From contig NZ_CP126625.1 of assembly GCF_030219325.1 (NCBI RefSeq), forward strand, positions 2,220,857-2,284,856: a DNA stretch of 64,000 nt, read 5' to 3'. The position numbers were made by a program, and so were the translations under genes. Origin of the DNA: Geothrix sp. GTDB lineage: Bacteria > Acidobacteriota > Holophagae > Holophagales > Holophagaceae. A model generated the notes under the pieces. That model ran no database searches, was not told the origin of the DNA, and saw only the letters and a list, made by a program, of their open reading frames with translations. Position 1 is the first letter of the stretch. Each line of letters starts with the position of its first letter. Below are positions 2,480 through 14,813 of this stretch, in pieces.

Positions 2480-4759
2480 TCACTGCGTCACGAAGTAGAA
2501 CTGGAGATCACAGTCCGTACGATTGGCCACGGCAAACAGATCCCAGCCCAGCCATCCGGTTCCGCTGTTGAACTGGGCGTAGCCATCGGCAAAGTAGGTG
2601 GTGGCCGGGAAGCCGTAGACGTTTCCCTTCTCGAGGGCATGGGTCGTGTGGACCGTATCCGCGGGAGAGCTGAGCACGAGGTGATAGCCCACACCTGCCT
2701 GAAGGGTCAGGGGCGTTCCGAATTTGACCGAGACCCACGCTTCGTTGGCGGAAGTGCTGCCGGCGCCACCCAGCGGGACCAGCACGGTGCCCTGGCCGAC
2801 CAGGGTCCCATCCGACTTCTCGATCGTGACGGTGAGGGGGCTGGATCCGCTGATCCGGTTGGCCCGCACGTTGATGGCTGTCACGGTGCGATCGACGCCG
2901 GAGACGGTGAAGGTCTCACGCACGGACTGCGTCCCTGAGATCGGCTTGGGGTTCACCCATCCGCTGGTGCTGGTCTGGCCAAAACCCTGGATGTAGCCCT
3001 GTCCCTGAGAGGCACCATCTCCGTAGGTCAACTGGATGGTGGGAGAGTAGCTGTGCGTCGATCCTCGGACGAAGGCGACCCATGCGCCAGCCGTGTTGGT
3101 CTCAAGCAGGCCCAGGTCTGTGTTCGACACCAGGGGCTGGGTGGATGTGCAGGCATTCCACATGAAGAGATGATCAAGGGAGATGTAGTTGACCGTGGGA
3201 TCCGCGTCCACGTTGGTGAAGACGACGTGGTAGAGCTGACCGGCAGTGAGGTTCGCCGGATTGGAGAAGGTCAGCAGGGGGAAGTAGTTGCCAATGGTGA
3301 TCGGCTGATTGTACTGAAGGGAGGCGAGCACGGTGCCAGAGGGGAGGTGGTTGCTGGAACCATCGTCCGTCTGGATCTGGATCACGATGTTGCCGCCGGT
3401 GCCCGCGCCGTAGCCGCCCTTGACGGTGCTCCAGATGAACTTGGGGCGAATCGATGTCAGGGTCCCGCTGTGCGTTGCGCGCACGCGGATGCTGGCCTTC
3501 CGGTTGACGGTATCCACGGAGCTGTTCCAGCCGATGACCTGATTTCCCAGGTCATCCGCATTCAAGCCGGATCCGTAGAACCCGGCGGTCTGGGCCGGGA
3601 CCGTGAGGACAGCAATGCTTTTCTGGGCGGAGGCGCTGATGGAGGAGCTGTTGGTGACGGTGCAGCCCAGCAGCAGGGTGCCCGCACCGCCCGCCGTGAA
3701 GGCAAGGTTGGTGGTTCCCTGGCCAGCACTGATGGTGCCGCCCGTGATCGTCCAGGCATAGGTGCAGTTGGACTGCGCCGGGATGCTGGCGAGGTTGCTG
3801 GTGGACTGGGCATTGACCTGGGAAGGGGCCGTGATGACGGGAGTCGCCGGAGCCGAGGCGACCACCTGGACCTGAGCTTGACTGCTGCTGTTGCCGACGC
3901 TGTTGGTTGCCATGCAAGTCAGGGTCAGGGTTCCAGCAGATCCCGCAGTGAAGGTCACCGAAGTGGAACTCGCTCCCGCGGTGATCGTGCCATCGACGAT
4001 GGTCCAGCTGTAGCTGGTGCTGCCCTCGGGCTGGGTCACGCTGGCCACCAGATTGGTCGCGCCCACGGTGGCACTGGTGGGGGCGGTGATCAGGGGAACC
4101 GCTGGAAGGGTGCCCTGGACCTGGACATGAGCGGTACTGCTCAAAGTCTGGGTGCCCGAGGTGGCCCGGCAGGTGAGGGCCAGCGTTCCGGCCTGGCCGG
4201 CCGAGAACGACACCGAGGTTCCGGTGGTCGGGCCCTGGATGGTGCCTCCGCTGATGCTCCAGGCATAGGTCGCGAAGGATTGGGGGTTCGTGGCACAGGC
4301 TGAAAGCCCCGTGGCGCCGGCGAGGGCCGTGGCCGGGGCATTGATGGTGGGTGTCTGAAGCGTCTGGTGATGGATGCGGATGGGTGCGGTGGCGGTCTTG
4401 GTGGTATCCGTGACGCTGGTGGCGGCCAGCAGATGGGTGCCCTCGGTCCCAGGGGCCGTGTAGGTCACGGTGTTTCCGCTCCCGCTGATGGTGCCGACAT
4501 CGGGATTGCCGTTCTGGATGCCGTCCACCAGCCAGGTGACGGCGGGGTTGGTGGTGCCGCTGACCTGGGCCGTCACGGAGAGAGGGTCCCCACAGATGGC
4601 GTCGGCGGGAGCCCCGGTCAGGCTCACGTTCACGGTCGCGGCCGGCGGCGTGGAGGTGCTGCCCGACCCCTTGGTGCCGCCCCCCCCACAAGCTCCTTGA
4701 ATGAGCAGTCCGGCAATGGCCAATCCCTGAAGTGTGTTGATGAAGTTTCCGATTCGCAT
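2480..4759 (-). CDS. Large secreted Ig-repeat lipoprotein (paralog 1)
   Basis: 759 aa from ATG 4759, preceded by GGAGGA at 5-nt spacing; an ORF extending further upstream lacks a site. The N-terminus MRIGNFINTLQGLAIAGLLI is a signal peptide ending in QGAC-GGGG, a slightly non-canonical lipobox (Q at -3), followed by a Gly/Ser linker. One bacterial Ig-like domain comes next, then three repeats of about 85 aa, each built on I-x-A-P...Y-x-W-x-I...G-T-I...F-x-A-G-x-A-G-T-L. The C-terminal region of about 370 aa (from FYGSGLNADDLGNQVIGWNS) is shared with the paralog at 7620-9608; I recognise no family. No catalytic motif is visible. Likely a cell-surface or outer-membrane-anchored adhesin or binding protein. 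It lies downstream of an NtrC-type regulator and has a sigma-54-like promoter (4783-4797), so it is the probable target of that regulator. Confidence 0.8.
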   Translation of the reverse strand: MRIGNFINTLQGLAIAGLLIQGACGGGGTKGSGSTSTPPAATVNVSLTGAPADAICGDPLSVTAQVSGTTNPAVTWLVDGIQNGNPDVGTISGSGNTVTYTAPGTEGTHLLAATSVTDTTKTATAPIRIHHQTLQTPTINAPATALAGATGLSACATNPQSFATYAWSISGGTIQGPTTGTSVSFSAGQAGTLALTCRATSGTQTLSSTAHVQVQGTLPAVPLITAPTSATVGATNLVASVTQPEGSTSYSWTIVDGTITAGASSTSVTFTAGSAGTLTLTCMATNSVGNSSSQAQVQVVASAPATPVITAPSQVNAQSTSNLASIPAQSNCTYAWTITGGTISAGQGTTNLAFTAGGAGTLLLGCTVTNSSSISASAQKSIAVLTVPAQTAGFYGSGLNADDLGNQVIGWNSSVDTVNRKASIRVRATHSGTLTSIRPKFIWSTVKGGYGAGTGGNIVIQIQTDDGSSNHLPSGTVLASLQYNQPITIGNYFPLLTFSNPANLTAGQLYHVVFTNVDADPTVNYISLDHLFMWNACTSTQPLVSNTDLGLLETNTAGAWVAFVRGSTHSYSPTIQLTYGDGASQGQGYIQGFGQTSTSGWVNPKPISGTQSVRETFTVSGVDRTVTAINVRANRISGSSPLTVTIEKSDGTLVGQGTVLVPLGGAGSTSANEAWVSVKFGTPLTLQAGVGYHLVLSSPADTVHTTHALEKGNVYGFPATTYFADGYAQFNSGTGWLGWDLFAVANRTDCDLQFYFVTQ

Positions 4760-4782
4760 TGGGTCCTCCGCAGCTGACTGAG

Positions 4783-4797
4783 GCAACGGGGGTACCA
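4783..4797 (-). promoter_or_regulatory. Sigma-54 (-24/-12) promoter for lipoprotein 1
   Basis: On the minus strand the sequence TGGTACCCCCGTTGC matches the RpoN consensus (TGGCAC-N5-TTGC) with GG and GC separated by exactly 10 nt. The predicted start point near 4771 lies just before the GGAGGA ribosome site (4769-4764) of the gene starting at 4759. The adjacent upstream gene encodes a sigma-54 activator with GAFTGA, which makes the assignment coherent. Confidence 0.65.
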
Positions 4798-4905
4798 CTG
4801 GAAAGCGATCAGATCACAACAGGTTAAACAACATGTTACGAGCATTAACAAATGCCGATCCGGCCTCCGGAGGGGCCTGGGGGTCGACCGTTTCTGAACC
4901 CTGGA

Positions 4906-4925
4906 TCCAGATTCTAGAATCTGGA
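4906..4925. promoter_or_regulatory. Perfect 20-bp palindrome, candidate activator site
   Basis: TCCAGATTCTAGAATCTGGA is a perfect uninterrupted palindrome that contains the stop codon of the NtrC-type regulator. Its centre is about 120 bp upstream of the -24 element of the lipoprotein 1 promoter, within the normal range for sigma-54 enhancer sites. It lacks a loop and a T-run, so a binding site is more likely than a terminator. Role inferred. Confidence 0.4.
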
Positions 4926-6269
4926 CGGCGCGGTCCCATAAGTCTTGAGCTTCTGGTAGAGGGTGCTCCGGGGGATGTCGAGCCGCTTGGCGGTCCGGTC
5001 CACATGGCCGCCCTCTTCGTTCAGGACCTGGAGGATGTAGTCCCTTTCCAGCTCTTTCAGGGTCAGGTTGGCCGCCCCCCCCGGCTTCGGACCGCCCGGA
5101 CTAGAGGCGAAATCCAGGTCCTGCGCCTCCACAATGGAGGACTTGGCACCCATCAGGGCCCTTTCCAGCACATTGCGCAGCTCACGGATGTTCCCCGGCC
5201 AGTGATGCTGCCTGAGTTTCATCAGGGCGCCCTGGGAGAGGTGCATCGATTCGCGGCCGCAGTCGCTGGTCAGGCGGTTGAGGAGGACCTGGCTGAAGGT
5301 GAGGAGGTCCTCGGCCCGCTCGCGCAGCGAGGGGACGAAGATCTGGATGGCGCTGATGCGGTAGAAGAGGTCGGATCGGAACCGCTGCTCCTGGACAAGT
5401 TGATCCAGTTTCTGGTGGGTGGCGGCAATCAGGCGGAAGTCCACCTTGCGGTCATGGACTCCCCCCAGGCGGCGGAACCGTTTCTCTTCCAGCGCCTTGA
5501 GGACTTTCGGCTGGATCTGCAGGTCCATATCCCCGATCTCATCCAGGAAGACCGTGCCGCGGTGGGCCGCCTCAAGCAGGCCGACCTTGTCGCTCGAGGC
5601 GCCGGTAAACGCGCCCTTCTCGTGCCCGAACAGCTCGGTCTCCAGGAACTCCTTGCTGAAGCCCCCGCAATTGAGCTCGAGCATCGGCTCGGAGGCCCGG
5701 GAGCCGTTCCGGTGCAGCCAACGGGCCAGCTCGCTCTTCCCCGTGCCCGTTTCGCCCTGGATGAGGATGGGGCTCTCGGTCGCGGCGGCGAGGCGGCACT
5801 GCTCCTCCAGGCGGTGGATGGCGAGGCTCTGGCCGATGAACGGATCCACCGCCCGCTGGGGCTGGTTCACGGACTCGCGGGCCAGCTGCTTCCTGCGATT
5901 CTGCTGGTTCTCGAGTGCCCGCTCGATGACCAGCAGGAGGGCCGGAAGGTCCAGCGGCTTCACCAGGAACTGCTCGGCCCCCAGCTGGATGGCCCGTACC
6001 GCGAGTTCGATGCTGGCATGGCCCGTCAGCAGGATGATGGGCACCCGCGAATCAATGGCCTTCAGCCTCGGGAGCAGCTCGAGGGCATTCCCGTCGGGAA
6101 GGGAGTAGTCCAGGGTCACGGCATCGTACACGTCGGCGCGGTACCGGATCTCGGCCTCGGCGCAGGTCTCCGCCTCGTCGACGGTGAACCCCAGGAGCTC
6201 CAGGTAATCGCGGATCGCAAAAACGATGATCTCATCATCGTCGACGACCAGGATTTTCGCTTTCGCCAT
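4914..6269 (-). CDS. NtrC-family sigma-54 response regulator
   Basis: 451 aa with three domains. The receiver (1-120) has acidic residues D10-D12 and phospho-acceptor D54 in VTLDYSLPDG. The AAA+ domain (about 145-370) has Walker A GETGTGKS at 172-179 and the sigma-54 contact loop GAFTGA at 219-224. The C-terminal Fis-type helix-turn-helix ends in TAKRLDIPRSTLYQKLKTYG. It should activate RpoN-dependent promoters when phosphorylated. The gene follows the sensor gene at 6310 with a 40-nt gap and precedes lipoprotein 1, whose upstream region has a sigma-54 promoter and a palindrome. Start ATG 6269 is preceded by GAGGG. Confidence 0.92.
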   Translation of the reverse strand: MAKAKILVVDDDEIIVFAIRDYLELLGFTVDEAETCAEAEIRYRADVYDAVTLDYSLPDGNALELLPRLKAIDSRVPIILLTGHASIELAVRAIQLGAEQFLVKPLDLPALLLVIERALENQQNRRKQLARESVNQPQRAVDPFIGQSLAIHRLEEQCRLAAATESPILIQGETGTGKSELARWLHRNGSRASEPMLELNCGGFSKEFLETELFGHEKGAFTGASSDKVGLLEAAHRGTVFLDEIGDMDLQIQPKVLKALEEKRFRRLGGVHDRKVDFRLIAATHQKLDQLVQEQRFRSDLFYRISAIQIFVPSLRERAEDLLTFSQVLLNRLTSDCGRESMHLSQGALMKLRQHHWPGNIRELRNVLERALMGAKSSIVEAQDLDFASSPGGPKPGGAANLTLKELERDYILQVLNEEGGHVDRTAKRLDIPRSTLYQKLKTYGTAPSRF

Positions 6270-6309
6270 GGGGCCCTCAAAACCATCTGGTTGCTTGCAA
6301 AGAATAGGA

Positions 6310-7440
6310 CTATTCCGATGGCAACATGAAGCTGATCCTCATGCCCCCCTCCGGGCCGGGGCCGGCCGTGAGCGAGCCGCCATGGGATTCGAAGATTCGC
6401 CTCGCCCCGGGCAGCGTGAGCCTGCCCAAGCCGGACATGCGGTAGTAGAAGGGCTCGAAGATGCGGGCCGGGTCGACCTGTTTCATCTTCGTGCCCGGGA
6501 AGTCCAGGTTGCCCGCAATCAGGCCCCGGTTCCCCTGGTGAGCCGCTGCCAGGTTGAGCACCACGCGTCCACCGGGCTGCTCCTGCTGGAGGATCAGGTC
6601 GATCAGGCGGATGAGCGCGGCCTGGAGGCCCTCGCCATCCGCCTGGATCCTGGGCAGGGCCCCTTCCGAATGGAACTGGAGATCAATGCCCTGCTTCGCC
6701 GCCAGCGGAGCGTTCCGCTCGACGGCCTCCCGCAGGAGCGGCTCCAGATCCAGGACCGTCCAGGAGAGCCGTTGGGGGTACCCGTACTCCTTCAGCTCCA
6801 CGATGAAGGTACCCATCCGATCCAGGCCCTTCCTGATGTTGGCTGCGTATCGGCCCACGTCCTCCAGCCCCGTGTACCTCGCCTCGAGGGCATCCAGGCT
6901 GGCCGAGATGCCAAAGATGAAGCTGCCGAGCTCATGCACGAGCCCGGGCACGAAGGAGGCCGCTGCGGGAGCGCGGAGCGTGGCCCGCGACTCGGACCTC
7001 TGGCGGTCCATGGTCACGATGGTCTGAACGTGCTCGGCCACAAGCCTCAACGCCTCCCGCTGGTCCTCGGACAAGCTGGGCGGCCCCTGGGACAGCACGC
7101 ACAGGGTGCCGAGGGCGCGGCGGCAGTCGTCCACCAGGGGCAGGGCCGCGGCGAGCTGCAGTCCTTGCGCTCCATGCCCACGGGCCTCTGGATCGAAGCC
7201 GGAGCCCCGGGACAGGGCCGGCTCCAGGGAGGCCGCCTGCTCGGTGGTGAGCCCGCAGCTGTCCCGATACCAGGTGCCCGACTCATCCTGCATGATCAGG
7301 GCCGCCGGCCCGCCCGCAAGAGCCGCGGCGATGAGGAGGGAGTCCCGCAGCATGTTCTCGGTATGGGATTCCGTGAACCCATGCCGGGGTGAGATGTCGG
7401 GCCGCGCCTGGCCCGGAAGTGGACCACCGTTGGCACTCAT
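6310..7440 (-). CDS. Cytoplasmic GAF histidine kinase with degenerate ATPase motifs
   Basis: 376 aa without membrane segments. Residues about 30-145 look like a GAF sensor domain. A dimerisation helix follows with the phospho-acceptor box FVPGLVHELGSFIFGI (H169). The C-terminal ATPase-like domain keeps ARIFEPFYY and FESHGGSL landmarks. The N-box, normally with two Asn residues, reads LIRLIDLILQQE, and the G1 DxGxG box reads DFPGT. The protein may therefore bind ATP poorly or act as a phosphatase or adaptor. It is the presumed partner of the NtrC-type regulator immediately downstream and sits between two paralogous lipoprotein genes. Confidence 0.75.
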   Translation of the reverse strand: MSANGGPLPGQARPDISPRHGFTESHTENMLRDSLLIAAALAGGPAALIMQDESGTWYRDSCGLTTEQAASLEPALSRGSGFDPEARGHGAQGLQLAAALPLVDDCRRALGTLCVLSQGPPSLSEDQREALRLVAEHVQTIVTMDRQRSESRATLRAPAAASFVPGLVHELGSFIFGISASLDALEARYTGLEDVGRYAANIRKGLDRMGTFIVELKEYGYPQRLSWTVLDLEPLLREAVERNAPLAAKQGIDLQFHSEGALPRIQADGEGLQAALIRLIDLILQQEQPGGRVVLNLAAAHQGNRGLIAGNLDFPGTKMKQVDPARIFEPFYYRMSGLGRLTLPGARRIFESHGGSLTAGPGPEGGMRISFMLPSE

Positions 7441-7619: not shown

Positions 7620-9608
7620 TCACTGCGTCTCGAAATAGAACTGGAGGTCGTTGTCGGTGCGGTTGGCGAGGCCCCACTCGTCCCATCCCACCCATCCGCT
7701 TCCGCTGTTGAATTCCGCATATCCATCCGCGAAATACGTCGTCGGCTTGTATCCGCAGCTGCTCCCCTTCTCCAGGGCATGCGCCGTGTGCACCGTGTCC
7801 GACGGCGAGCTCAACACCAGGTGGTACCGCTGTCCCGCCTGCAGCGTCAGCGCCGTCACGAACGCCACCTTCGCCCAGGACGATCCGTTGTGCGAGGAGC
7901 TCACCGCCCCCTGCGCCACCACCACCGTCCCCTGCCCCACCAGCGTCCCATCCGCCTTCTCCACCCGCACCGTCAGCGGGCTGCTTCCGCTGAGCCGATT
8001 CACCCGCACCGATACCGTCGTCACCGTCCGGCTGGTCCCCGACACGGTGAACGTCTCGCGCACGCCCTTCGCCCCGGATATCAGCTTCGGGTTCACCCAG
8101 CCGGAGGCCGTCGTCTGACCGTAGCCCTGGATGTAGCCCTGTCCCTGGGAGAATCCATCCTCGTAATCCAGCTCGATGGTCGGCGTCCAGCTGCCCGTTC
8201 CCCGGTTGAACAGCACCCAGGCCCCGCTGCAGTTCCGCTCCAGCATCGCCATGTCGGTGTTCGACACCGTCGGCTGCACGGGACTGTTCCCGTCCCACAT
8301 GTAGAGGTGGTCCAGGGAGACCCAGTTCACCGTCGGGTCCGCCGCCACGTTCGTGTAGACGATGTGGTAGAGCTGCCCCGCCACCAGGCTCGCCGGGGTC
8401 GAGAAGGTCAGCAGCGGGAAATGGTTCCCCGCCGTGATCGGCTGGTCATACACCAGCGAGGCCAGGGTCACTCCTGATGGGAAGTGGTTGCTGGTCCCGT
8501 CGTCCGTCTGGATCTGGATTCGGATCGTCCCTCCGTTCCCCGCCGCATAGCCGGATTTCACATCGCTCCAGATGAACTTGGGCCGGATCGCCGTCAGCTT
8601 TCCCGTGTGCTCCGCCCTCAGCCGGCAGCTTGCCGCCTTGTTGCAGCTGTCCACCGCCGTGTTCCAGCCCACGATCTGGTTCGCGAGGTCGTCCGCATTG
8701 ATCCGGGAACCGTAGTAGCCCGCCGCCTGCCCCGCCGGCAGCACCGTGATGCTCTGCTGGGCCGTGGCGCTCACCGAGGCGCTGTTGGTCACCGCGCACA
8801 GCAGCACCATCGTACCGGTGCCTCCCGCCGTGAACACCACGCTGGTCGTCCCCTGCCCCGAACTGATCGTTCCCCCCGAGAGCGTCCAGGCGTAGGAGCA
8901 TCCCGCCTGCGCCGGAATGCTCGCCACGTTCTGGCCCGACTGCGCCGTCACCTGGCTCGGCGCCGTGATCACCGGCGTGGCCGGCGCCACCGGAACCACC
9001 TGCACCTGGGCCTGGCCCACGCTGCTCCCCACGCTGTTGGCCGCCGTGCAGGACAGCGTCAGGGTGCCCACCGCCCCGGCACTGAAGGTCATGGAGGCAG
9101 CATTGGCCCCGGAGATGATCGCCCCGCCGGTGATGGTCCACTGGTAGCTCGTGTCGCCCTCAGGTTGGGCCACGCTGGCCCCCAGATTGGCCGCCCCCGT
9201 GCTGGCGCTGACGGGCGCGGTGATCTGCGGGGTCCTCGGCAGGGCGCTCTGCACCTGCACCTGGGCCGTCGCGCTCGCGCTCTGGCTGTCCAGGGTCGCC
9301 TTGCACGTGAGCGTCAGCGCCCCCGCCTGCGCCGCCGTGAACGATACCGGAACCCCTGTGGAAGGCCCCTGGATGGTTCCGCCGCTGATCGTCCAGGTAT
9401 AGGTCGCGTTCGGCTGCTGGTTGGTGACCGTGGCCGTGAGGTTGCTGCTCCCGATGGCCACTGCCGCCGGCGCCACGATGACCGGAGGGGGAACGGCTCC
9501 TTGTGGGGTCGGGCTTCCGCCCGATCCACCGCTGCAGGCGATCAGGGAGCAGATGGTCCCGACCGCGATCAGGCCCAGCACTCGGAATTGGATGCTGCCT
9601 ACATGCAT
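7620..9608 (-). CDS. Large secreted Ig-repeat lipoprotein (paralog 2)
   Basis: 662 aa. The signal peptide ends in a clean lipobox SLIAC followed by SGGSGGSPTP. Three Ig-like repeats of about 85 aa follow (ATYTWTISGGTIQGPSTG and equivalents). The C-terminal region of about 370 aa starts FYGS-like as YYGSRINADDLANQIVGWNT and is clearly homologous to the one in 2480-4759. It has one Ig-like unit fewer than paralog 1. The start ATG 9608 is preceded by AGGAAGG. I saw no sigma-54 motif in the 117 bp upstream, unlike paralog 1, so the pair may be regulated differently. Function unknown; surface binding or adhesion is the best guess. Confidence 0.8.
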   Translation of the reverse strand: MHVGSIQFRVLGLIAVGTICSLIACSGGSGGSPTPQGAVPPPVIVAPAAVAIGSSNLTATVTNQQPNATYTWTISGGTIQGPSTGVPVSFTAAQAGALTLTCKATLDSQSASATAQVQVQSALPRTPQITAPVSASTGAANLGASVAQPEGDTSYQWTITGGAIISGANAASMTFSAGAVGTLTLSCTAANSVGSSVGQAQVQVVPVAPATPVITAPSQVTAQSGQNVASIPAQAGCSYAWTLSGGTISSGQGTTSVVFTAGGTGTMVLLCAVTNSASVSATAQQSITVLPAGQAAGYYGSRINADDLANQIVGWNTAVDSCNKAASCRLRAEHTGKLTAIRPKFIWSDVKSGYAAGNGGTIRIQIQTDDGTSNHFPSGVTLASLVYDQPITAGNHFPLLTFSTPASLVAGQLYHIVYTNVAADPTVNWVSLDHLYMWDGNSPVQPTVSNTDMAMLERNCSGAWVLFNRGTGSWTPTIELDYEDGFSQGQGYIQGYGQTTASGWVNPKLISGAKGVRETFTVSGTSRTVTTVSVRVNRLSGSSPLTVRVEKADGTLVGQGTVVVAQGAVSSSHNGSSWAKVAFVTALTLQAGQRYHLVLSSPSDTVHTAHALEKGSSCGYKPTTYFADGYAEFNSGSGWVGWDEWGLANRTDNDLQFYFETQ

Positions 9609-9725: not shown

Positions 9726-10355
9726 TCACTGGGGTGCTCGTTTCCTGAGCATCCTGATCACCAGCAGGTCACCGAAGGGTTGGATGATGGCGAACCAGAT
9801 CGCGGCGTAGCCGAAGGAGAGGATGATCTTCAGCCAGTCCGGGAGGAAGGAGATGTCGTTCTTGATCAACCAGACGGGAACGATGGACAGGGGGATGCAG
9901 ACCGAGAAGGAGGCCAGGAAGACCGTGCGGAACACCCTGGAGCTCACGCCCAGCAGGGTCTCACTGCCTTCGAAATTCCTGTTCTGGCTGACCTTGAAAT
10001 AGTCGAGATAGGACCTTGCGAACGAGCCCCCGGGCATCGCGTCCACCTGCCTGGCGAGGGCCTCGAGGGTGCGTCCCTCCAACTCGCGGGCGAACCGGAC
10101 CGCCGTTCCATGGGCATCACTCCGGATGACCGTCCCTTCGACGAGGATCCTCTCCCCCATGGCTTCCCCCTCGGGAGGTATCGCCAGTTTGCATTGGCTT
10201 CCCACCGAAAGCGCCGGAGAGGCCTGCAGGAGAAGCCCTCCGAGACCGATGTTGAGGACCAGGACAGATGAGGTCGCCAGGCCCTTGGAAAGAACTTGGG
10301 CCTTCTTCACGATTCGGATCCGCCCCCAGGCGCGCGAGTCATCGGATTTGCCCAT
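9726..10355 (-). CDS. PilZ-like domain protein with C-terminal membrane anchor
   Basis: 209 aa from ATG 10355, preceded by GGAG. Upstream in-frame ATGs at 10367 and 10388 lack a site. Residues about 5-100 resemble a PilZ domain: an early basic stretch RIRIVKK, then LVLNIGLGGLLLQ and GTAVRFA late. Two hydrophobic segments (VFLASFSVCIPLSIVPVWLI and IILSFGYAAIWFAIIQPF) anchor the C-terminus in the inner membrane. The classical RxxxR and DxSxxG c-di-GMP motifs are only partly present (N-I-G-L-G-G replaces DxSxxG), so binding is uncertain. The roughly 290 bp upstream hold the divergent gap to the dehydrogenase gene at 10647; I see no other gene there. Confidence 0.6.
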   Translation of the reverse strand: MGKSDDSRAWGRIRIVKKAQVLSKGLATSSVLVLNIGLGGLLLQASPALSVGSQCKLAIPPEGEAMGERILVEGTVIRSDAHGTAVRFARELEGRTLEALARQVDAMPGGSFARSYLDYFKVSQNRNFEGSETLLGVSSRVFRTVFLASFSVCIPLSIVPVWLIKNDISFLPDWLKIILSFGYAAIWFAIIQPFGDLLVIRMLRKRAPQ

Positions 10356-10646
10356 CGGGATCTCCATGGTTCGTTGGTGCAAGTTCACTCCCCCACCCCT
10401 TCTTCTGGATCAATCAGCGAAACGGCTCCCATGATTGACTTTTTTTTCCATGTTACATCCTGTTCTGGTACACCTATCGAGCGTTCCTTGTGACAAGATG
10501 GGCCAGTACGTCCCGCAAGCCACCCTGGAGATCCTCAAAACTCGGAAAAATCGATTCCGAGCCCGGGTGCCCTTCCGACCACCCCAGGGCCCCGGACCTC
10601 ACCGGACGGCTCACGAATGCAGATTCAAAGGTATCTTGGGAGATAG

Positions 10647-12056
10647 ATGCCCGGAGGTCATGTGCGCATCGCATTCCTGGGTCTGGGGCGCATGGGCCTT
10701 CCCATGGCCCGCAACCTCCTGGGGCGGGAGCACACCGTCACGGTCTACAACCGGACGCCCGGCCGGGCCGAAACCCTGGCGGCCCTGGGGGCGGAAGTCG
10801 CCACCACCGTGGCCGAGGCCGTGAGGAACGCGGAAGTGGCCATCACCATGCTGTCCGATGATGCGGCCATGAACGAGGTCGCCCAGGGCCAGACCGGCCT
10901 CCTTCGCCACCTGCCCGCCAGAGCGATCCACATTTGCATGGGCAGCATGGGAATCGAGGTCTCCGCTGCCCTCGCCACCGCCCATGCCCAGGCGGACCAG
11001 GGCTACCTGGCGGCTCCGGTCTTCGGCCGGCCGGACACGGCTGCCACCCGCCACCTCTGGATCCTGGCCGGGGGACCCGAGCCTCAGGTGAACCGCTGCC
11101 GGCCCATTTTCGAGGCGCTGGGGCAGGGCTATACCCGGGTCGGGCCCAATCCCGCCCTCGCCCATGCCCTGAAGCTGGGGGGGAACCTGCTCACGATGGC
11201 CATGGAACTCGCCGCGTCGGAAATCCTCCCCTATGCCACTAAGGCCGGGTTGCCTCCCGCGGACTACCTGCGCCTGCTGAACACGGCCATCTTCAGGTCC
11301 CACGTGATGGATGGCTACGGGAGCATTCCGGCCCGGCCGTCCTTCGATCCGGAGGACCAGACCCTCGACCTGGCCGCCAGCGAGCTGCTGGCACAAGCCT
11401 GCAAGGACCTGGGAGCCGACATCCCGCCGGTCGATCTCCTCCACGCGCGTCTGCAGGCCGCCAGCGCCCGGGGCTGGGGTGAGCAGGACCTTGCCGAACT
11501 GACCCGGACCTTCCACCTGGAGACCGGAGGCGAAGAGCCTCCGGCCCTGACCCGGGCGACGCCGCCTTCCCCGCCCCGTCCAAAACCGCTGCATCCTCCC
11601 CCGCCCCGCACAGTGATCCAGTCAGAGGAGCCGCTTCCCTCCCCGGAGCCGAAGTCCGCCCCGTCGTCCGCCAAGACCGCCCGGAAGGCCGAGCCCGCCA
11701 AGCTGAAACCGCCCCAGGTCCTCTCCGCCAACCGGTTCGACGCCCTGGAAGACGGGGCTCCCGTGACCCTCGACCTGAACCGGAGCAGTCACTTCGAGTT
11801 GATCCACGGCCAGGTCTGGGCCTGGTCGGAGGGAAGGCGCTACAGGACCTTCTGGACCAGCCTCGACGAGGTCGAGTCGACCTTCCACCACGTGATGTTC
11901 CTGCGGAGCAAGCGGCATGTCCTGCTGCGGCCCGAGGCCGTCCTGGAACTGCGGCCCACGTTTGGGGGGGGTGCCAAGGCGCGTGTGGGGGGGGATGTCG
12001 AGCTGGACGTGGGGCGCACCGCCTTGGCCCGACTTAAGGACCTGCTGGGCCTGTGA
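10647..12056 (+). CDS. 3-hydroxyisobutyrate-dehydrogenase-like enzyme fused to a LytTR-like DNA-binding domain
   Basis: 469 aa. Residues 7-290 are a beta-hydroxyacid dehydrogenase: NAD(P) motif GLGRMG at 12-17, then the conserved catalytic Lys and Asn in LKLGGNLL (K176, N180). A Pro/Lys-rich linker runs from about 295 to 360. Residues about 372-469 resemble a LytTR domain: SLDEVES, FLRSKRHVLLRPEAVLELRP, then a final strand and basic helix, as in the F-x-R-x-H-R...V/I...I-x-x-I pattern of LytTR. I know of no standard family with this pairing, so the enzyme may report on a metabolite or NAD(P)H and act on DNA. ATG 10647 and GTG 10662 (GGAGG directly upstream) are both possible starts. An OmpR-type regulator gene follows after 76 nt. 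Confidence 0.75.
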   Translation: MPGGHVRIAFLGLGRMGLPMARNLLGREHTVTVYNRTPGRAETLAALGAEVATTVAEAVRNAEVAITMLSDDAAMNEVAQGQTGLLRHLPARAIHICMGSMGIEVSAALATAHAQADQGYLAAPVFGRPDTAATRHLWILAGGPEPQVNRCRPIFEALGQGYTRVGPNPALAHALKLGGNLLTMAMELAASEILPYATKAGLPPADYLRLLNTAIFRSHVMDGYGSIPARPSFDPEDQTLDLAASELLAQACKDLGADIPPVDLLHARLQAASARGWGEQDLAELTRTFHLETGGEEPPALTRATPPSPPRPKPLHPPPPRTVIQSEEPLPSPEPKSAPSSAKTARKAEPAKLKPPQVLSANRFDALEDGAPVTLDLNRSSHFELIHGQVWAWSEGRRYRTFWTSLDEVESTFHHVMFLRSKRHVLLRPEAVLELRPTFGGGAKARVGGDVELDVGRTALARLKDLLGL

Positions 12057-12132
12057 GTCGGGCCAAATCGCGGGCAAATTATGAAGACAGGGGGCCCGAC
12101 CGTATTGGGACAACGGGTACACTGTAGGACAA

Positions 12133-12900
12133 ATGTGCCCCCCTGAACCCCGTTCGCTCCCCCCGAAGAAGGTGCCGGCCGCGTCCCAGTCCGAACCAGG
12201 GACACCCCCGGAAGCCGAGGCCACCCTGGTCCTCGTGGTCGAAGACGAGCCGCTGGCGCGGGTCTCCATCCGGGCGACCCTGCTGAAAGCGGGCTTCCTG
12301 GTCGTCGAGGCCGAAAGCGGTGAACAGGCGCTGGGCCTCTTCGACCAGGGTCCCGCTCCCGATGTGGTGATCCTGGACATCGGCCTGCCCGGCCTCGATG
12401 GTTTTCAGGTCTGTCAGGCCATGCGGAAGAAGCGGGCCGACACGGCCATCCTCATGCTCACGGCCCGGGCCGATCCCTCAGACAAGATCACCGGCCTCAC
12501 GCTGGGGGCCGATGACTACCTGGTGAAGCCCTTCAATCCCGGCGAGCTGGTGGCACGCATCCGGGCCGTCCTGCGGCGATCGGCGCTTCAGGCGCCCTCG
12601 ACGGAACCCATCGTGGCGGGTGACCTGCGCCTCGACCCTCGATCCCAGAAGGCTTACAAGCGCGGCGTGGACGCCAACCTGTCACCGCGTGAATTCGCCC
12701 TGCTTGCGGCCCTCCTCCGCCATCCCGGCCAGGTCATGTCCCGGGAGAAGCTGGCCCAGGAGGTCTGGGGGCCGGCGCACCAGGCCAACGCGCGGGCGCT
12801 GGATGTGTTTGTCTGCAAGCTCCGCGACAAGATCGAAGACGATCCTGACCATCCCTTCTATGTCAAGACCGCCTGGGGCGCGGGCTACATCTCCGGCTGA
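12133..12900 (+). CDS. OmpR/PhoB-family response regulator
   Basis: 255 aa with a Pro-rich N-terminal extension of about 30 residues. The receiver domain has VVEDEP for the acidic pocket, phospho-Asp in VVILDIGLPGLDG, the Thr/Lys switch in MLTARAD and LVKPFNP. The C-terminal winged helix has LSPREFALLAALLRHPGQ, the recognition helix in NARALDVFVCKLRDKIE, and GAGYISG at the end. No cognate kinase lies beside it. It follows the LytTR-like fusion gene in the same direction, which could place it in the same transcript. AGGA precedes the ATG. Confidence 0.9.
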   Translation: MCPPEPRSLPPKKVPAASQSEPGTPPEAEATLVLVVEDEPLARVSIRATLLKAGFLVVEAESGEQALGLFDQGPAPDVVILDIGLPGLDGFQVCQAMRKKRADTAILMLTARADPSDKITGLTLGADDYLVKPFNPGELVARIRAVLRRSALQAPSTEPIVAGDLRLDPRSQKAYKRGVDANLSPREFALLAALLRHPGQVMSREKLAQEVWGPAHQANARALDVFVCKLRDKIEDDPDHPFYVKTAWGAGYISG

Positions 12901-12972
12901 AATACCGGCGCAAGGATTCCTGCGTCCCGGGTCATCCGGCTTGATGGATCATTGTCGCAAAATTAGAGTCTA

Positions 12973-14571
12973 ATGATCCCCGAGGCCGCCATGCTCCCTG
13001 CCCCATCCCCGACCCGGCGCGCCATCGACCGCCTGCCCGCCCACCTGCGCCGCTTCGTGGTGGACCAGGACCATGGGGCCTACACGCCGAGGGACCACGC
13101 GGTGTGGCGGCACATCCTGCACCGGCTGGCGGACCGCCTGAGGGATACGGCCCATGCCAGCTACCTGTCGGGCCTGGCGGCCACGGGCATCGGCCTGGAG
13201 CGCATCCCCAGCCTGGACGAGATGAACGGGAAGCTGGAGGCCATGGGCTGGTCCGCCGTGGGCGTGCGGGGCTTCATCCCCCCCGCCGTGTTCACGGAGC
13301 TGCAGTCCCTGGGGGTGCTGGCCATCGCCGCGGACATCCGCAGCCACGAGCACATCGAGTACACGCCCGCCCCCGACATCGTCCACGAGAGCGCGGGCCA
13401 CGCGCCGATCCTGGCTGACCAGCGCTACGCGTCGTACCTGAAGCGCTGCGGCGAGGTGGGCTTCCGGGCCATCGCCTCGGTGGAGGACCAGGCGGTGTAC
13501 GAGGCCATCCGCAACCTCAGCGTGGTGAAGGAGGACCCCGCCGCCAGTGAGGAGGAAGTGCGCCTGGCCCAGGAGCGCCTCCACGCCGCCGGGGCCAGCC
13601 GCCGCTACGTGAGCGAGAGCACCAAGGCTAGCCGCCTCTACTGGTGGACCGCCGAGTACGGCCTGGTGGGCAGCCTGGACGATCCCAAGCTCTACGGCGC
13701 GGGCCTGCTCAGCAGCCTGGGCGAGGCGGCCCACTGCCTCACCCCGGCGGTGAAGAAGGTGCCCCTCTGCCTGGTCTGCGCCGACACGGAATACGACATC
13801 ACGCGCATGCAGCCCCAGCTCTTCGTGGCGCGGGACTTCGACCACCTCTTCGAGGTGCTGGAGGCCTTCGAGGCGACGCTCGGCTGGCGGCGGGGCGGCG
13901 ACCACGGCCTGGAGGAGGCCCTGCGCGCCCGCACCGTGAACCACCTGGTGCTGGATGACGGCCTGGAGCTCACCGGCAAGGTGGTGGCGCGGATCCCCGC
14001 CCGGGGCGAGCTGGCGCCTGGCCTCGCCACGGCCCTGGCCCGCATCGAGGGCCCGGTCCAGCTCTCCCGCCACGGCCAGGCTGGCCAGCGGCCCTGGCCC
14101 GGCGAGGCCCTGGTGGCCTTCGGCAGCGGGCTGCTGCCCCGCCGCGGGGCCTTCAGTCTGGACCTGCCCTCGGGGCTCTTCCTCACGGGCTTCCGGGTGG
14201 GCGAGCACGAGGTGATCAACCTGCGGGGGCACCAGGACGGCCGCCCCCTGGACCTGCCCAGCTGGGCCCTGCTCTTCCTGAGCGGGAGCCTGCCCTCGGT
14301 GGCGGGCGGACCGGCCGATCCCGGGGCCTGGGATGCCTGGTTCGGCGATCCCTCCGCCCTGGCCGAGGGGGAGGCCGAAGCCCAGGCCCGGGACCGCAAG
14401 GCCCAGGCCCTGCCCGCGGATCTGGCGGCACTCTACCTCGAGGCGCGATCCCTGCGCGAGGGTGGCCGGATCGAAGACGAGCGGCTCCGCCGCCTGGCCG
14501 GCCGCGCTGCGGAACACCCCGACGAGTGGCTGCTGCAGGCGGAGCTGGCCGAACTGGAGGCGAGGCGATGA
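12973..14571 (+). CDS. phhA: Phenylalanine 4-hydroxylase (long bacterial form)
   Basis: 532 aa aromatic amino acid hydroxylase converting L-Phe to L-Tyr with tetrahydropterin, O2 and non-haem Fe(II). The iron ligands are visible: two His in PDIVHESAGHAPIL (near residue 140) and the Glu in YWWTAEYGLVG (near 225). About 250 residues follow the catalytic core, as in the long bacterial forms, ending in Ala/Glu-rich helices. Its stop overlaps the start of the pterin dehydratase gene (ATGA), so the enzyme and its cofactor-recycling partner are coupled. The start could also be ATG 12991, which has GAGG at 5 nt. Confidence 0.9.
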   Translation: MIPEAAMLPAPSPTRRAIDRLPAHLRRFVVDQDHGAYTPRDHAVWRHILHRLADRLRDTAHASYLSGLAATGIGLERIPSLDEMNGKLEAMGWSAVGVRGFIPPAVFTELQSLGVLAIAADIRSHEHIEYTPAPDIVHESAGHAPILADQRYASYLKRCGEVGFRAIASVEDQAVYEAIRNLSVVKEDPAASEEEVRLAQERLHAAGASRRYVSESTKASRLYWWTAEYGLVGSLDDPKLYGAGLLSSLGEAAHCLTPAVKKVPLCLVCADTEYDITRMQPQLFVARDFDHLFEVLEAFEATLGWRRGGDHGLEEALRARTVNHLVLDDGLELTGKVVARIPARGELAPGLATALARIEGPVQLSRHGQAGQRPWPGEALVAFGSGLLPRRGAFSLDLPSGLFLTGFRVGEHEVINLRGHQDGRPLDLPSWALLFLSGSLPSVAGGPADPGAWDAWFGDPSALAEGEAEAQARDRKAQALPADLAALYLEARSLREGGRIEDERLRRLAGRAAEHPDEWLLQAELAELEARR

Positions 14572-14813
14572 GCTGGCGCGAGGAGAACGGCACCCTGGTG
14601 CGGACCTTCAAGACCCCGGATTTCCTGACGGCCTACAACCTGGTGAGCGCCATCGTGGGCCCGGCCGAGGCGCTGAACCACCACCCGGATCTCGCCTTCG
14701 GCTGGGGCTATGTGCGGATCACCCTCACCACCCATGACGCGGGCGGCATCACAGAGCTGGATCACCGGCTGGCCGACGCCATTGATCATGCAGTTAAACC
14801 ATTTGATCTATAA
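14568..14813 (+). CDS. phhB: Pterin-4a-carbinolamine dehydratase
   Basis: 81 aa, typical for the family. It dehydrates the 4a-hydroxy-tetrahydropterin released by phenylalanine hydroxylase so the cofactor can be recycled. The active-site signature is LNHHPDLAFGWGYVRITLTT, followed by the second conserved segment ITELDHRLADAID. The start ATG 14568 overlaps the hydroxylase stop; longer in-frame starts would run inside phhA and are unlikely. Confidence 0.92.
   Translation: MSWREENGTLVRTFKTPDFLTAYNLVSAIVGPAEALNHHPDLAFGWGYVRITLTTHDAGGITELDHRLADAIDHAVKPFDL

Follow-up and report, generated by a model that had tools for sequence, protein, structure and literature searches.

An impaired beta-hydroxyacid dehydrogenase joined to a LytTR domain in Geothrix: a candidate one-component regulator

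A single open frame on the + strand of the window (the whole 64,000-nucleotide stretch of DNA that we analysed, from Geothrix of the family Holophagaceae) encodes one protein that begins with a beta-hydroxyacid dehydrogenase (beta-HAD) and ends, after a Pro-rich linker, in a LytTR domain. On balance, we lean towards a one-component LytTR regulator in which an impaired beta-HAD takes the place of the receiver and probably senses NAD(P)H or a metabolite, with exopolysaccharide genes as its likeliest targets. The active site is partly lost, the enzyme is fused to LytTR and the neighbouring genes build a sugar coat; the protein is therefore probably a cofactor- or metabolite-sensing gene switch. 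The fusion is intact in eight assemblies of the same genus, two of them single-contig (the window genome and one other), and a ninth same-genus copy ends at a contig edge.

Architecture and predicted fold

The fusion gene occupies 10662-12056 (+) and encodes 464 aa plus the stop from a likely GTG start. The sequence-only reading had the location of the frame right and opened it at ATG 10647, 15 nt upstream; GTG 10662 is probably the true start, because a GGAGG ribosome-binding site lies at 10653-10657 (+) and the orthologues begin at the same M/V-R-I. Residues are numbered with this GTG as residue 1. The Rossmann NAD(P)-binding domain (aa 1-160; 10662-11141, +), delimited by PF03446, model pLDDT above 90 and conservation, carries the GLGxMG loop and Asn30-Arg31. 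Next come the second part of the beta-HAD, which is all-helical (aa 164-287; 11151-11522, +), a Pro-rich, poorly conserved and hypervariable linker (aa 288-354; 11523-11723, +), and the LytTR domain (aa 358-464; 11733-12053, +), assigned by Pfam profile and predicted fold.

Profile searches, which had been proposed as a check, bear out part of this assignment. NAD_binding_2 (PF03446) scores 127 bits in the window fusion protein. LytTR (PF04397) passes its cut-off of 22.6 when the domain is scanned alone (24.6-25 bits), but reaches 20.8 bits in the full-length protein, and NAD_binding_11 (PF14833), the helical part, stops at 29.3 bits, just short of its cut-off of 30. All eight fused C-terminal domains match LytTR and no other Pfam family. 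The Pfam scan of the fusion protein gave no Response_reg match, and thus no receiver domain, and no PWWP match.

Structure prediction had been chosen beforehand as the test on which the LytTR assignment could fail, and no different fold was returned. The C-terminal 107 aa, modelled from the eight fusion sequences only and no other LytTR sequence, reached a mean pLDDT of 95.1. Compared with solved structures, the model gave Z 14.3 (3d6w), about 12 (AgrA) and 11 (ComE), against 4.6 for the next unrelated fold; as modelled, the C-terminal domain is the LytTR beta fold. The full-length model is confident in the Rossmann part, drops to low confidence after aa 210 and is poor for aa 217-287. It matches the beta-HAD family at Z 28-31, including N-PAC (2uyy) and AtGLYR1 (3doj), in structural alignments that span mainly the first 210-220 residues, and a long helix predicted at aa 164-194 connects one half of the enzyme fold with the other. 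One open frame, the Pfam matches and the predicted fold together uphold the original description of a dehydrogenase, a Pro-rich linker and a LytTR-like domain fused at this place.

Active site and DNA contacts

Across the nine fusions the enzyme half keeps its GLGxMG loop and catalytic Lys171 (codon at 11172-11174, +) without exception; seven of them also have Asn30, and eight have Arg31. Three fusions, the window protein among them, still carry the catalytic Asn175 (11184-11186, +); the remaining six have lost it. The earlier claim of a retained NAD(P) loop and catalytic Lys/Asn thus holds in every fusion for the loop and the Lys, and for the Asn in the window protein but not in most orthologues. 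Gln233 (11358-11360, +) stands in place of a substrate-binding Phe, and Ser240-Glu241 (11379-11384, +) in place of a Lys-Asp pair; the Phe and the pair are lost in 9/9 fusions, with Gln, Leu, Lys or Pro at Phe233, Ser, Asn or Pro at Lys240, and Glu or Gly at Asp241. The same positions are highly conserved in 80 outside homologues (Lys240 99%, Asp241 94%, Phe233 93%), and F233, K240, D241 and N175 are intact in all ten standalone homologues of the same genus.

In the enzyme AtGLYR1, K170 and N174 serve catalysis and F231 and D239 bind substrate (PMC5399074). Fusion residues K171, N175, F233 and D241 correspond to AtGLYR1 K170, N174, F231 and D239 when mapped by spacing, with no structural superposition. 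Part of the substrate/cofactor pocket is lost, and the dehydrogenase half is therefore most likely devoid of substrate turnover at a normal rate. By the same token, the initial idea of a normal dehydrogenase that senses its substrate finds no support, because the Phe, Lys and Asp of the substrate/cofactor pocket are gone from all nine fusions.

In one rival reading the protein is a bifunctional trigger enzyme: the dehydrogenase stays active on some substrate, and through LytTR its turnover would feed into transcription. Such an enzyme fits the presence of Lys171 and the NAD(P) loop in every fusion, Asn175 in the window protein and a dehydrogenase dN/dS of about 0.04 in one pair, but we think it unlikely, with Phe233, Lys240 and Asp241 lost in all nine fusions and Asn175 in six, and all four kept by the standalone homologues. 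In a second rival reading, the dehydrogenase half is an oligomerisation platform only, in a DNA-binding factor that takes no small-molecule signal. The predicted helix at aa 164-194 would suit that role, and the scaffold of N-PAC is an inert beta-HAD tetramer (PMC13144531); this too seems unlikely, since so strongly conserved a cofactor loop and Lys171 exceed what a scaffold needs.

In the LytTR half, the window protein carries FLRSKRH at the position of the LytTR motif FhRhHRS and keeps both Arg. The first Arg of FhRhHRS contacts DNA in AgrA (PMC4227749). This contact Arg is kept in 21 of 22 response-regulator paralogues and is Leu or Pro in seven of eight fusions, the window protein being the one that keeps it. 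The motif Arg at aa 418 persists in seven of the eight, and the last-strand Arg in all. With the first contact Arg lost in 7/8 and the last-strand Arg present in every fusion, DNA binding is likely and its specificity may have changed; here lies the main doubt about the regulator reading. Could the LytTR domain have given up its usual DNA reading and become a protein-interaction module? The loss of the AgrA-type contact Arg in 7/8 fusions points that way. We nevertheless hold this to be quite unlikely: the LytTR fold is predicted to be intact, the domain is under purifying selection in the single pair examined, the other two Arg are largely or wholly retained, and the window protein still has the contact Arg.

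Searches for a binding site were also made. The sequence-only reading had looked to 10356-10646 for a bipartite LytTR-type site; direct repeats of the LytTR type (9 bp each, with 10-13 bp spacing) did not rise above shuffled sequence in 10389-10661 or in 13 other intergenic regions. Sigma-70 promoter or terminator patterns were likewise not found at 10300-13000. An AT-rich element of about 50 bp with TGAAAATTTATAAGATGAT precedes the fusion-holding sugar operon and is conserved in three species (G034, G029 and G020), at L039 10800-11010 (-), L043 2600-2785 and L044 2840-3080. Searched in 41 genomes, it matched exactly in G020 and with two mismatches in two genomes of other genera, and a reversed control matched about as often as the two-mismatch matches did. 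The window genome has no match, and with the control matching similarly we rejected the element as a general operator.

Distribution, origin and gene neighbourhood

The fusion was not found outside the genus in the sampled genomes (297 of the phylum, same-genus ones included). No record in the plasmid collection had a match spanning 80% of the fusion protein, and no dehydrogenase-LytTR fusion is reported in the open-access literature searched, which leaves out most subscription papers. Although the architecture is thus confined to one genus in the genomes searched, the chance that it is an assembly chimera or a mis-called frame merging two genes is close to nil, because orthologues in eight independent assemblies, two of them single-contig, carry the same fusion with conserved flanks. 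Absence from orthologues had been named as the mark of an assembly artefact; the orthologues have it, and the fusion is real.

The fusions form one clade in the tree of either domain (support 100/100) and share a single origin. The LytTR half nests among the LytTR domains that response regulators of this genus and family carry (enclosing forks 87/92 and 88/83; midpoint-rooted), and all 22 LytTR paralogues examined from this genus and family are receiver-LytTR proteins. It appears to derive from this local receiver-LytTR response-regulator family. We also observed that receiver-LytTR response regulators at genus/family level (L002, L003, L165-L181) have a motif ending in RH (LRIQRHLLLRPEAV, for instance) and not the usual FhRhHRS. 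Between the G029 and G020 fusions, the one pair compared, dN/dS comes to about 0.04 over the dehydrogenase, 0.13 over LytTR and 0.35 over the linker, which indicates purifying selection on both domains and much less constraint on the linker in this pair. At the 40% level, none of 37 same-genus genomes holds both a standalone homologue and a fusion (p about 0.025, uncorrected for relatedness). Direct positional replacement of a standalone gene by the fusion was considered and rejected, as the standalone copies sit in a different setting.

Most of the fusion genes are embedded in an exopolysaccharide gene cluster or border on one, and an OmpR-type regulator is usually close by. The sequence-only reading had noted neither this setting nor the parallel with N-PAC/GLYR1 that is described below. 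In three genomes (G029, G020 and G034) the fusion is within a cluster of UDP-sugar dehydrogenase, epimerase, glycosyltransferase, DegT aminotransferase and sugar transferase genes. Genes for a polysaccharide export protein and a Wzc-like kinase are found near the fusion in G016 and G004, with a phosphoesterase gene between, and in G009 the fusion directly follows a polysaccharide dehydratase gene. The window holds a UDP-GlcNAc 2-epimerase gene of an exopolysaccharide cluster (3-1268, +; PF02350) and a gene for a polysaccharide biosynthesis nucleotide-sugar dehydratase (1369-2430, +; PF02719). Between these sugar genes at 3-2430 and the fusion are five genes on the opposite strand, two of which form a two-component system, and they count against exopolysaccharide genes as the target in the window genome. 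The two-component genes (4914-7440, -), a histidine kinase at 6310-7440 and a sigma-54 (NtrC-type) response regulator at 4914-6269, flank the sugar cluster. G034 and G009 have comparable kinase/sigma-54 regulator pairs; in G029 and G020 a comparable kinase was seen.

The OmpR-type response regulator gene (12133-12900, +) had been suggested as a partner of the fusion. It often adjoins it, as in G000, G032, G004 and G016, and lies two genes away in G029 and G020, but each also occurs without the other. G034 and G009 have a fusion locus without an OmpR-type regulator, and G002, G005 (contig edge) and G021 have the regulator with no detected fusion. The association therefore stands as that of a frequent neighbour, and the regulator is no obligate partner.

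Other genes around the fusion were noted. A divergent gene of 220 aa (9726-10388, -), just 5' of the fusion and with no Pfam family above cut-off, has homologues close to the fusion in G016 and G014. The genes at 2480-4798 and 7620-9608 (-) encode two large proteins that contain PKD-like repeats and begin like lipoproteins. Downstream, 12973-14810 (+) encodes a biopterin-dependent aromatic amino acid hydroxylase and then a small putative pterin dehydratase partner, a pair kept together across most of the genus.

Proposed mechanism and known systems

The one-component regulator that we favour would have arisen when a beta-HAD replaced the receiver of a LytTR response regulator. Its beta-HAD half, which retains the NAD(P) loop and the predicted fold, would serve as an oligomeric sensor, and binding of NAD(P)H or another small ligand would make the tethered LytTR domains sit differently on DNA. 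The surrounding exopolysaccharide genes would be the likeliest targets, possibly controlled jointly with the adjacent OmpR-type regulator. Against this reading, the catalytic Lys is kept in all fusions, which an inactive enzyme would not require. We infer that the protein binds a cofactor and DNA and has lost activity, and likewise which genes it controls and in which direction.

If the proposal is true, it adds an enzyme-derived input to those of LytTR regulators, and the close standalone relatives offer a comparison for tracing the partial loss of a metabolic enzyme's active site once it has been fused to a DNA-binding domain. Control of exopolysaccharide genes would tie cofactor or metabolite state to production of the surface coat.

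The nearest system in design is N-PAC/GLYR1/NP60 (PDB 2uyy), a chromatin protein of eukaryotes, humans among them, that, like the fusion, combines an impaired beta-HAD, a linker and a DNA- or chromatin-binding module in one chain; the fusion model matches 2uyy at Z 30.6. In N-PAC/GLYR1 the catalytic Lys is replaced by Met, a PWWP domain and an AT-hook precede the beta-HAD, and the beta-HAD is an oligomeric scaffold (PMC13144531). N-PAC thus has a C-terminal beta-HAD without its catalytic Lys, whereas the fusion keeps Lys171, has lost other pocket residues and carries its DNA module as a C-terminal LytTR domain. Because it has no PWWP match and retains Lys171, the fusion falls outside N-PAC/GLYR1, and the likeness is one of design only. 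Since N-PAC put the same enzyme family to similar use, the bacterial fusion offers a simple model of a retired dehydrogenase in gene control. A stronger reading, which we put forward only tentatively, makes the fusion an independently evolved bacterial counterpart of N-PAC/GLYR1, whose silent beta-HAD reads NADP(H) state and gates LytTR at exopolysaccharide promoters; it would then stand for a new regulator class, one-component proteins that sense redox state or a metabolite.

Beta-HAD enzymes (AtGLYR1 3doj, tartronate semialdehyde reductase 1vpd, and 4gbj) have the fold, the NAD(P) loop and the catalytic Lys in common with the fusion, which differs in having lost the substrate-binding Phe, the Asp and the adjacent Lys, and in carrying the extra linker and LytTR domain. 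LytTR response regulators (AgrA, ComE and, in the window genome, L002 and L003) have the DNA-binding fold predicted for the fusion, but possess a receiver, which the fusion lacks. The nearest bacterial designs are RcoM and CoxC, one-component LytTR regulators that sense through a heme domain and a membrane MHYT domain (PMC11347149). As in the fusion, the sensor is joined directly to a C-terminal LytTR domain with no receiver; where RcoM and CoxC use heme and MHYT, the fusion would use an enzyme-derived beta-HAD.
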